A DNA stretch of 64,000 nucleotides, taken from positions 62,001 to 126,000 of the forward strand of contig JAUIGE010000001.1 of the NCBI GenBank assembly GCA_030430205.1, read 5' to 3'. The DNA comes from Bacteroidia bacterium (lineage in GTDB: Bacteria; Bacteroidota; Bacteroidia; J057). The position numbers and the translations under genes were made by a program. Positions 48,514-50,490 of the stretch are shown piece after piece; the stretch's first letter is position 1, and every line of letters starts with the position of its first letter. The notes beneath the pieces are model-generated. The model worked only from the letters and a program-made list of their open reading frames with translations. It was not told the origin of the DNA and did no database searches.

Positions 48514-48538
48514 CTGCTAATCTGCTCATCCTCTCATT
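48503..48538. repeat. Period-8 array spanning the lpxK start codon
   Basis: On the minus strand GAGCAGAT, TAGCAGAT and GAGCAGAT follow one another and end in the lpxK ATG AGC AGA; the stop codon of the upstream PAS gene (48534-48536) lies at the other edge. The same unit appears at 55765-55796. Confidence 0.75.
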
Positions 48539-48953
48539 TCCCCAACCTATCCAGCTTGCCCGTCAACAGGTATTCCATCTCCATGCGGAGTTTATTTCGT
48601 TCGCTTTGTATTTCTTTGAAATAGCGGTAAATCTGGGTTTGATCGACAATCAGCCAGACATATTCATCAGGATGAAAAGGATGCAGACGCAGCTCAAAAT
48701 CAAAATAGCCGTCCAGGCCCCATTCATTCATTTCAACCCCTACATAAGTTTGACCGGGCATATCAGGTTCAAGCAGTTCCAGGCTTTCTCTGGCACTGAT
48801 CAGGAAGGGGAAGTTTTCAAAAGCGTTTTTGCCTATCAGGCTTTTTAAGTCTGCCAGTGTATGACATGAGTCCAGAATAATCCCGCTCTTGTTAAATAGT
48901 ACTACTTGAGAAAGATCGTTCAGCAAGCGGTGTTTTAGTTCGTTTGGCTTCAT
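48534..48953 (-). CDS. Small PAS-like protein of the GTPase module
   Basis: A 139-aa soluble protein. Residues about 8-110 read as a PAS fold (QVVLFNKSGIILDSCHTL, LIGKNAFENFPFL, FDFELRLHPFHPDEYVWLIVDQT), followed by a charged helix (YFKEIQSERNKLRMEMEYLL) that probably forms a coiled coil. There is no kinase, cyclase or output domain, so it should act by binding another protein. It begins 3 bp after the Ras-like GTPase gene, so the two are surely cotranscribed and probably work together. Family not recognised beyond the PAS-like pattern. Confidence 0.75.
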   Translation of the reverse strand: MKPNELKHRLLNDLSQVVLFNKSGIILDSCHTLADLKSLIGKNAFENFPFLISARESLELLEPDMPGQTYVGVEMNEWGLDGYFDFELRLHPFHPDEYVWLIVDQTQIYRYFKEIQSERNKLRMEMEYLLTGKLDRLGK

Positions 48954-48956
48954 AGC

Positions 48957-49523
48957 TTAGCCCTCTTTTTCAGATGATAACATGCTGTTAGCCAGGCCGA
49001 GAAACATATTTTCTACATTCAAACCTGTCTTGGCACTTGTGATATAGTGCGGTTTCAAGGGAATCCCTCCCAGGGTCTTTACAAATTCGGCATTTTGCAT
49101 CAAAAGCTCTACGGTGTCCTTTTCGCTATCGAGCTCCTCTTCTGAGAGGAAGAGATCCGCTTTGTTGGCCGCGATGACGACTTCTACGCCTGGCACCATT
49201 TCCTGTAGTTCTTTGATCTTGAGATCCAGCTTTTCAAATGTCGAATCTCTGGTAGTATCAATGACATAAATGATGCCACTACAACCGCGAAGGTAATAGT
49301 AGGGAACCTCGGAAGTATTGTCCCTGCCGGCGATATCCCAGATCACCAGGTCTACTCTATGACCATTGATCTCAACGGTTTTTTTATCCACTTTTAAGCC
49401 AATGGTGGTAAGGTATTTATCCGAAAATTTTTGGTAGACAAATCGGCTGATCAAGGAAGTTTTTCCGACAGCATGGCTTCCCAGAAGGGCTACTTTTTTA
49501 CTGATCCACTTGGTTGAATCCAT
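48957..49523 (-). CDS. Ras/Rab-like small GTPase
   Basis: A 188-aa P-loop GTPase of the Ras superfamily. It has the P-loop GSHAVGKTS (15-23), a Rab-like switch I (TTIGLKVDKKTV), the G3 motif WDIAGRD (62-68), the G4 motif NKAD (120-123) and the G5 motif TSAK (162-165). In G3, Arg replaces the catalytic Gln of Ras/Rab (AGQE), which predicts slow intrinsic hydrolysis or a special activating partner. There is no C-terminal Cys, so no prenyl anchor. Bacterial Ras-like GTPases include MglA (polarity, with MglB) and several groups of unknown function. The gene overlaps the upstream longin-like protein gene by 26 bp. Confidence 0.92.
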   Translation of the reverse strand: MDSTKWISKKVALLGSHAVGKTSLISRFVYQKFSDKYLTTIGLKVDKKTVEINGHRVDLVIWDIAGRDNTSEVPYYYLRGCSGIIYVIDTTRDSTFEKLDLKIKELQEMVPGVEVVIAANKADLFLSEEELDSEKDTVELLMQNAEFVKTLGGIPLKPHYITSAKTGLNVENMFLGLANSMLSSEKEG

Positions 49524-50361
49524 GAAAATGTTCTTTTAATTTCTCAGACATCTCTTGTTGTAGAGAAGCTGTCACTTCCATGTGTGAACTGAGTTTGACT
49601 GATTTCAAAAAATCAAGGACCTCCTCATCCAGGTGATCTTTAAAATCGGGAGAAATCGTTCCACTGACAACAGAAGCAATGTAGAAGTTTTGGAATGTAT
49701 TAATTACTATTTTGTATTTCTCATACTCAACCGTTTCCAGGTCCTGAGCGTCTTGCTGGAAAGCATGCTCGACAAAGCCTTTAATGCCCGTAAGCATGCC
49801 AGCGATCATGTCGGGGTCCATGAGATTGTTGAAAGAATGATGCCCCAGGAGCAGCCCAGACTCATTGTCAATGAGGAAAACCTCTTCCATATTGACAACG
49901 AGATTGTCTCGCATGAGCAACTCCCGGTAGGGAATTCCAGTCACAAAGGACTTGATGCGAAGCTTCCAGTTTTGGATCGAGAAAAGATCCCGCTGCGCAT
50001 CGTCGATGCGCTGGCTGAGCTTTTCAAGCTCTGCTTTGATGTAGCGGGTGATCATTTTTCCAATGATCGGATAGAGCGCATTGATGATCGTATCATTGGA
50101 CTCGGCTATCTGCTCTTCCAGCGCTTTGGCCAGGCTATTGCGGAAAAGTTCTGGAAAATTTGCTTTGAGAAACTCGATATGCTTTTCGAAATGGGGCTCA
50201 AGATGTGGCTCAAACTTTTCAGGAACGGAGATTTCCTCTTCCAGAGCCTGGATCTTCACGATCATGTTTTCCTGCAATTCAATTTGCTCCTCAAACAGCA
50301 AAATTCGGAGCTGTTCCAGTTTTTGTTTTTCGGGTTCCTGCAAGATGTGGTCGGTCGCCAT
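49498..50361 (-). CDS. Coiled-coil protein with longin/roadblock-like C-terminal domain
   Basis: A 287-aa soluble protein, from the ATG at 50359-50361 (an in-frame TTG is two codons upstream). The first ~150 residues are strongly helical (EQIELQENMIVKIQALEEEI, KALEEQIAESNDTIINALYP). Residues about 155-260 (VFLIDNESGLLLGHH, DPDMIAGMLTGIKGFVEHAF, then a LETVEYEKYKIVI strand) match a domain seen ahead of OmpA domains in other bacteria, with the shape of longin/roadblock partners of small GTPases. Since it overlaps the GTPase gene, it is a good candidate for the regulator or scaffold of that GTPase. The partnership is inferred from position only. Confidence 0.78.
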   Translation of the reverse strand: MATDHILQEPEKQKLEQLRILLFEEQIELQENMIVKIQALEEEISVPEKFEPHLEPHFEKHIEFLKANFPELFRNSLAKALEEQIAESNDTIINALYPIIGKMITRYIKAELEKLSQRIDDAQRDLFSIQNWKLRIKSFVTGIPYRELLMRDNLVVNMEEVFLIDNESGLLLGHHSFNNLMDPDMIAGMLTGIKGFVEHAFQQDAQDLETVEYEKYKIVINTFQNFYIASVVSGTISPDFKDHLDEEVLDFLKSVKLSSHMEVTASLQQEMSEKLKEHFHGFNQVDQ

Positions 50362-50490
50362 GAGCAATCATTAAGAGATTCCGGATTAGGTAGTCCTTGG
50401 AGCGTCAAAATAAGCTTGTTAGCCGTACGAAACAAGTCTTTTTGTTTGAGAAAAAAGGGAGTCTGACTTACAATTACAAGGGTTTATTCT

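Follow-up and report, generated by a model that had tools for sequence, protein, structure and literature searches.

Wuichet and Sogaard-Andersen predicted in 2014 a Group 1 Rup system (PMC4316618), which is the closest described counterpart of the genes studied here. Its gene neighborhood encodes a coiled-coil protein; a second protein, often with a transmembrane (TM) helix and an OmpA domain, whose conserved domain had no known function; the Rup GTPase; and an output module, which is a kinase or a c-di-GMP enzyme with a shared N-terminal domain. The Rup GTPase lacks the G3 glutamine, and the authors point to an invariant glutamine in the N-terminal region of the output module because the missing residue might be supplied in trans. 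Group 1 Rup GTPases have been reported as the bacterial proteins closest to eukaryotic Rab, Ras, and Rho. A limited literature search, in which absence is not proof, found no experimental work on the Group 1 Rup system after 2014.

We analyzed a stretch of 64,000 nucleotides from a Bacteroidia bacterium, referred to here as the window; its genome is G000. The window carries three genes, in the order A-B-C, for a coiled-coil/longin-fold protein (A), a Rab-like GTPase (B), and a stand-alone PAS protein (C). The original prediction had regarded this trio as an unstudied set; it instead belongs, as a variant, to the Group 1 Rup system, which was described computationally in 2014 (PMC4316618). As in that system, there is a Rab-like GTPase that keeps the G3 aspartate and, in the window, lacks the G3 glutamine, a partner A with a conserved domain, a PAS-type front of the output protein, and a short coiled-coil protein in the genome. 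Unlike in that system, the output enzyme is cut to a PAS stub, A has no OmpA domain, most of the family has a G3 glutamine in cis, and the coiled coil lies not in the neighborhood but at another locus with a PG_binding_1 protein. Since the gene set and its order match those of the published system, we assign the module as a Group 1 Rup variant. In this assignment, A stands for the longin-fold protein, B for the Rab-like GTPase, and C for the PAS domain at the front of an output enzyme; the fourth subunit, the short coiled coil, sits at the second locus together with a TM/PG_binding_1 protein. Taken as a whole, the module is probably best explained as a reduced form of the Group 1 Rup signaling system with its genes split between two loci. 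The system itself was already predicted; the new content is the longin assignment and the kinase-less, two-locus layout.

Other known systems share parts of this design. Actinobacterial conservons (CvnA-D) and MglA-MglB also pair a small GTPase with a roadblock/longin-superfamily partner and have a link to a histidine kinase or sensor, but the GTPase here is of the Rup type rather than MglA, and neither a Robl_LC7 protein nor a kinase accompanies it. The tri-longin Rab GEFs (Mon1-Ccz1, Fuzzy-Inturned, and HPS1-HPS4) and TRAPP likewise join a longin-fold protein to a Rab-like GTPase; unlike them, A consists of one longin domain plus coiled coils, its sequence similarity to them is weak, and the substrate Y-K motif is missing. 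C resembles short LOV and single PAS proteins in having a PAS domain and a C-terminal helix with no effector domain, but it is encoded with a GTPase and is related to the front of output kinases.

The three-gene module and its conservation

All three genes are intact open reading frames (ORFs) on the minus strand. A (49498..50361) has N-terminal coiled coils and a C-terminal longin-fold domain with no TM or OmpA extension; its start is the ATG at 50361, and an in-frame TTG at 50367 is a possible alternative. B occupies 48957..49523, and C (48534..48953) is a PAS domain that ends about 20 residues past a helix motif with Q116 and N120. A and B overlap by 26 bp, 3 bp separate B from C, and lpxK follows C after 20 bp, so the view that the trio forms a unit with overlapping or closely spaced genes stands.

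The trio was conserved in our genome-context survey, as had been proposed. A and B occur in the identical 8 of 13 genomes of the window's family, and A-B-C are contiguous in that order in the window's genome and four further ones (G013, G014, G012, and G011), covering four genera. In genus g4 (G007-G009), A and B lie on separate contigs and C is undetectable. At a threshold of E ≤ 1e-15, the GTPase is present in 12 of 395 genomes of the class, and A adjoins it in all six that lie outside the family. In the phylum sample, A is found in 14 of 395 genomes once two genomes (G331 and G418) that match only the OmpA part are left out. A and B together with a C-containing protein occur in several other families, and related sets are encoded by a Myxococcota MAG (L010), a Nostoc plasmid, and a Mesorhizobium plasmid. 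The contiguity within the family and the recurrence in other families of the class exceed chance association; the set also recurs beyond the phylum. The interval between the facing genes lpxK and htpG spans 158 bp in G005, a genome without A and B, and 2,044 bp in the window, where it contains the trio; the three genes therefore occur, or are missing, as one block. Gene orientation varies among the relatives: in L061, L063, L064, and L070, the gene for the GTPase is transcribed away from those for the coiled coil and A-OmpA. One genome, G606, holds two copies of the system.

The predicted longin-fold domain of A

A has no Pfam match of its own, and neither A nor C has a curated Pfam or NCBIfam name. 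Several lineages have a form of A extended by a TM helix and an OmpA domain, and the window's A is homologous to the A-OmpA proteins of L010, L033, and L034. The AlphaFold2 (AF2) model of A, with a low to modest overall pLDDT of 71 and domain blocks of 64 to 92, has the order b-b-a-b-b-b-a-a over residues 159-281. A Foldseek search with this model returned, at about 1e-4, p14/MP1, Mon1-Ccz1, MglB, TRAPP, and Fuzzy-Inturned, with adaptor sigma also among the top roadblock/longin matches. The suggestion that the upstream protein has a longin/roadblock fold is therefore borne out by the predicted model. The domain (49582..49908, minus strand; residues 154-262 when numbered from the TTG at 50367) is delimited by AF2, Foldseek, and weak Pfam longin matches of family members. 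When 29 family members were searched against 24,736 Pfam models, Fuz_longin_1 (five matches) and Intu_longin_1 (four) were hit most often; the best E values, 0.008 and 0.007, respectively, are weak, and the matches fall short of the curated cutoffs and cover colinear stretches. With a profile of the whole of A against PDB sequences, OmpA dominates since three profile rows carry that domain. A domain-only profile gave TRAPP BET5 (E = 0.15) and TRS23 (E = 0.97) as its top two, both nonsignificant.

Roadblock is a circular permutation relative to longin (PMC3521125). The sequence matches are individually weak; jointly with the predicted fold, they favor longin rather than roadblock for the domain of A. 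Judged by this model, the domain listed as of unknown function in 2014 is now recognized as a longin fold, and its weak sequence matches are longins of Rab GEFs. A would more likely act on B as an exchange factor or a scaffold than as a GAP. The canonical mechanism of tri-longin GEFs does not apply: substrates of these GEFs carry a Y-K/R motif in switch 1 (PMC12383261), and B has Y37-L38, with leucine at position 38 in place of Lys or Arg, a position at which we found lysine in L035 alone.

Could A nevertheless be an MglB-like GAP, with C an effector or sensor only that donates no glutamine? MglB, a GAP, is among the structural matches of the A model, and the absence of a catalytic glutamine from B itself would speak for such an activity. 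However, the sequence matches of A go to longin and not to roadblock families, and the strand order of its model is longin-like. We consider the GAP reading possible but doubtful. Under the preferred assignment, recognition of a longin would supply a candidate regulator for the Rup GTPase, one of the kind by which Rab proteins are controlled.

The GTPase, the PAS stub, and the catalytic glutamine

B matches the Pfam Ras model at 2.8e-30, and its best PDB chain is Rab21 (2.5e-25). All five motif regions can be read, as originally predicted: G1 GSHAVGKTS, switch 1 FSDKYLTTIG, G3 WDIAGRD (49320..49340, minus strand), G4 NKAD, and G5 TSA, with Arg67 at the position of the catalytic glutamine. These motifs, the Pfam match, and the tree place B among Rab-like GTPases of the Group 1 Rup type. 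It is the sole small Ras-like GTPase found in the 7.24-Mb genome, where the remaining matches to the Ras model fall in far longer frames. Three of these long frames, on contigs G000:C51, C58, and C60 (L056-L058), are 984 to 1173 amino acids in length and may be Roco-type GTPases.

In the GTPase tree, the window's family forms one clade (support, 100/99). At position 67, all 18 GTPases of the tree set that lie outside the family have Glu, Asp, Ser, Thr, or Gly; within it, g4, g6, g7, and g8 have Gln, the window has Arg, and the genus-mate has Lys. The change from Gln to Arg is real yet confined to the window's genus, where it is a genus-level feature. The GTPases of the g4 genomes differ at other sites as well: L106, L107, and L108 (from G008, G007, and G009, respectively) have WEVAGQE at G3, with Glu replacing the usual Asp; one of the three lacks the NKxD motif; and the gene adjoins one for a succinyl-CoA-ligase-like protein.

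The AF2 model of C is a PAS fold with a pLDDT of 88, and its best matches among PDB structures are PpsR, short LOV, PYP, and FixL. The ORF holds the PAS domain alone, in agreement with the proposal that this protein has no output domain. C matches the N terminus of the L032 histidine kinase (tblastn, 4e-15). Outside the family, the protein after the GTPase is an output protein in every relative in which it could be read: histidine kinases, some with receiver and HPt domains (e.g., L030, L032-L036, and L073), sigma-54 activators (L067, L069, and L071), or a nucleotide cyclase (L074). By these sequence comparisons, C is the counterpart of the N-terminal region of proteins that in other lineages are histidine kinases or other output enzymes. 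The output part is absent from all family members with C, in which only the N-terminal PAS domain remains. We looked for a second protein in the genome with the PAS domain of C, which would point to a split output protein, and found none; the other matches are to the linker/DHp part of ordinary kinases, and the split-output idea was rejected.

The range of output proteins includes several cases of separate interest. A PAS domain joined to a sigma-54 activator follows the GTPase at L067:6002-7756, L069:2895-4679, and L071:2902-4656, an output class that the accessible part of the 2014 account does not mention (PMC4316618). On the Mesorhizobium plasmid, an adenylate/guanylate cyclase follows the Rup GTPase (L074:6502-7572). 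In L032 and L036, genes for a receiver, a LytTR-like regulator, and an HPt-like protein lie downstream of the PAS-kinase, which suggests that the Rup GTPase heads a phosphorelay in that family.

For the alignment of C, we left out the kinases of L062-L064 and L070, which have no obvious counterpart of its domain. Q116 is a candidate for the invariant glutamine of the Rup output module: all aligned sequences have a glutamine in one of two adjacent columns at this site. N120 is invariant. Both residues lie on the C-terminal helix (residues 106-131; 48561..48638, minus strand), a candidate contact with B as judged from the AF2 model and the alignment. A G3 glutamine in cis is seen solely in the clade that has lost the output part, including all three g4 genomes, which lack C. 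This distribution fits the idea of a glutamine in trans but is suggestive only, as three genera have both C and the cis glutamine; there, donation by C would be unneeded.

A less favorable reading is that C is a functionless, decaying remnant and that the module is being lost in the family. In its favor are the loss of the kinase part, the absence of C and the unlinked A and B genes in g4, and the lack of the trio in G005. Decay is nevertheless unlikely: five genomes from four genera have C next to B as an intact ORF, the Q/N helix is kept, and the model of C is of high confidence. As a stand-alone PAS stub, C is a small soluble handle on the question of whether the catalytic glutamine that B lacks comes from the output protein. 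Membership in an MglA/MglB-type polarity module, suggested by a small Ras-like GTPase next to a roadblock-superfamily protein, is very improbable and was rejected: B keeps the G3 aspartate (WDIAG) where MglA has threonine (PMC3000849), the genome has no match to Robl_LC7 (PF03259), and the gene neighbors are those of Rup systems.

The second locus, the cell envelope, and a proposed mechanism

The gene before A in genomes outside the family usually encodes a short coiled-coil protein with a KIRDILFG-type N terminus. Within the family, this subunit is encoded at a separate site in G000, where it lies on contig G000:C8, and in G013, G014, G012, and G007. A PG_binding_1 protein with an N-terminal hydrophobic helix adjoins the coiled coil in G000, G013, G014, and G012 and also in G340, where the coiled coil is still beside A. 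The full-length peptidoglycan-binding protein is present in 7 of the 395 class genomes, and each of these 7 also has the GTPase; a match in G162 was excluded from this count as a generic PG_binding_1 domain in a different protein. The nominal hypergeometric probability of this co-occurrence is 3e-12, a value that overstates the evidence since six of the seven genomes belong to one family. In the family, neither the peptidoglycan-binding protein nor the GTPase is present in G005, G006, or G010. The OmpA domain that is fused to A elsewhere may here be replaced by the separate peptidoglycan-binding protein; only about three residues are predicted before the TM helix of that protein, which bears against an easy link to cytosolic parts.

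From these parts we propose the following mechanism. B would be the switch, cycling between GDP and GTP, and A would regulate it via the longin domain. C would recognize GTP-loaded B through the domain by which the kinase was formerly linked to B. The active site of B, which has no glutamine of its own, may be completed by the C helix that carries Q116. The coiled coil and the peptidoglycan-binding protein would place the assembly near the cell wall, the role of OmpA on A elsewhere. With the kinase gone, the B-C complex would itself, by its state, constitute the output, or the output would lie in an unlinked target.

A broader and decidedly speculative suggestion concerns the origin of the Rab-longin partnership. 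Bacterial Rup operons might keep a true Rab-like GTPase/longin pair in which A is a bona fide longin regulator, the partnership being pre-eukaryotic or donated to eukaryotes; in the window's lineage, it would have been uncoupled from the kinase, with the PAS stub completing the GTPase site in trans. Such an origin would be contrary to the proposal that eukaryotic longins derived from roadblock GAPs of MglA (PMC3521125).

The genes downstream of the trio are lpxK (5e-84), purine nucleoside phosphorylase (punA; 9.5e-47), and Porin_10 (2.9e-38). They had been taken as a hint of envelope control. The genes are confirmed, and the peptidoglycan-binding partner points to a tie between the system and the cell wall or envelope, but adjacency to lpxK and punA is uninformative, and we rejected it as a functional hint. 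That the module regulates these envelope genes is highly unlikely: lpxK adjoins C in G000, G014, and G011, but G013 and G017 keep lpxK-punA without the trio, and G013 and G012 have the trio without lpxK.
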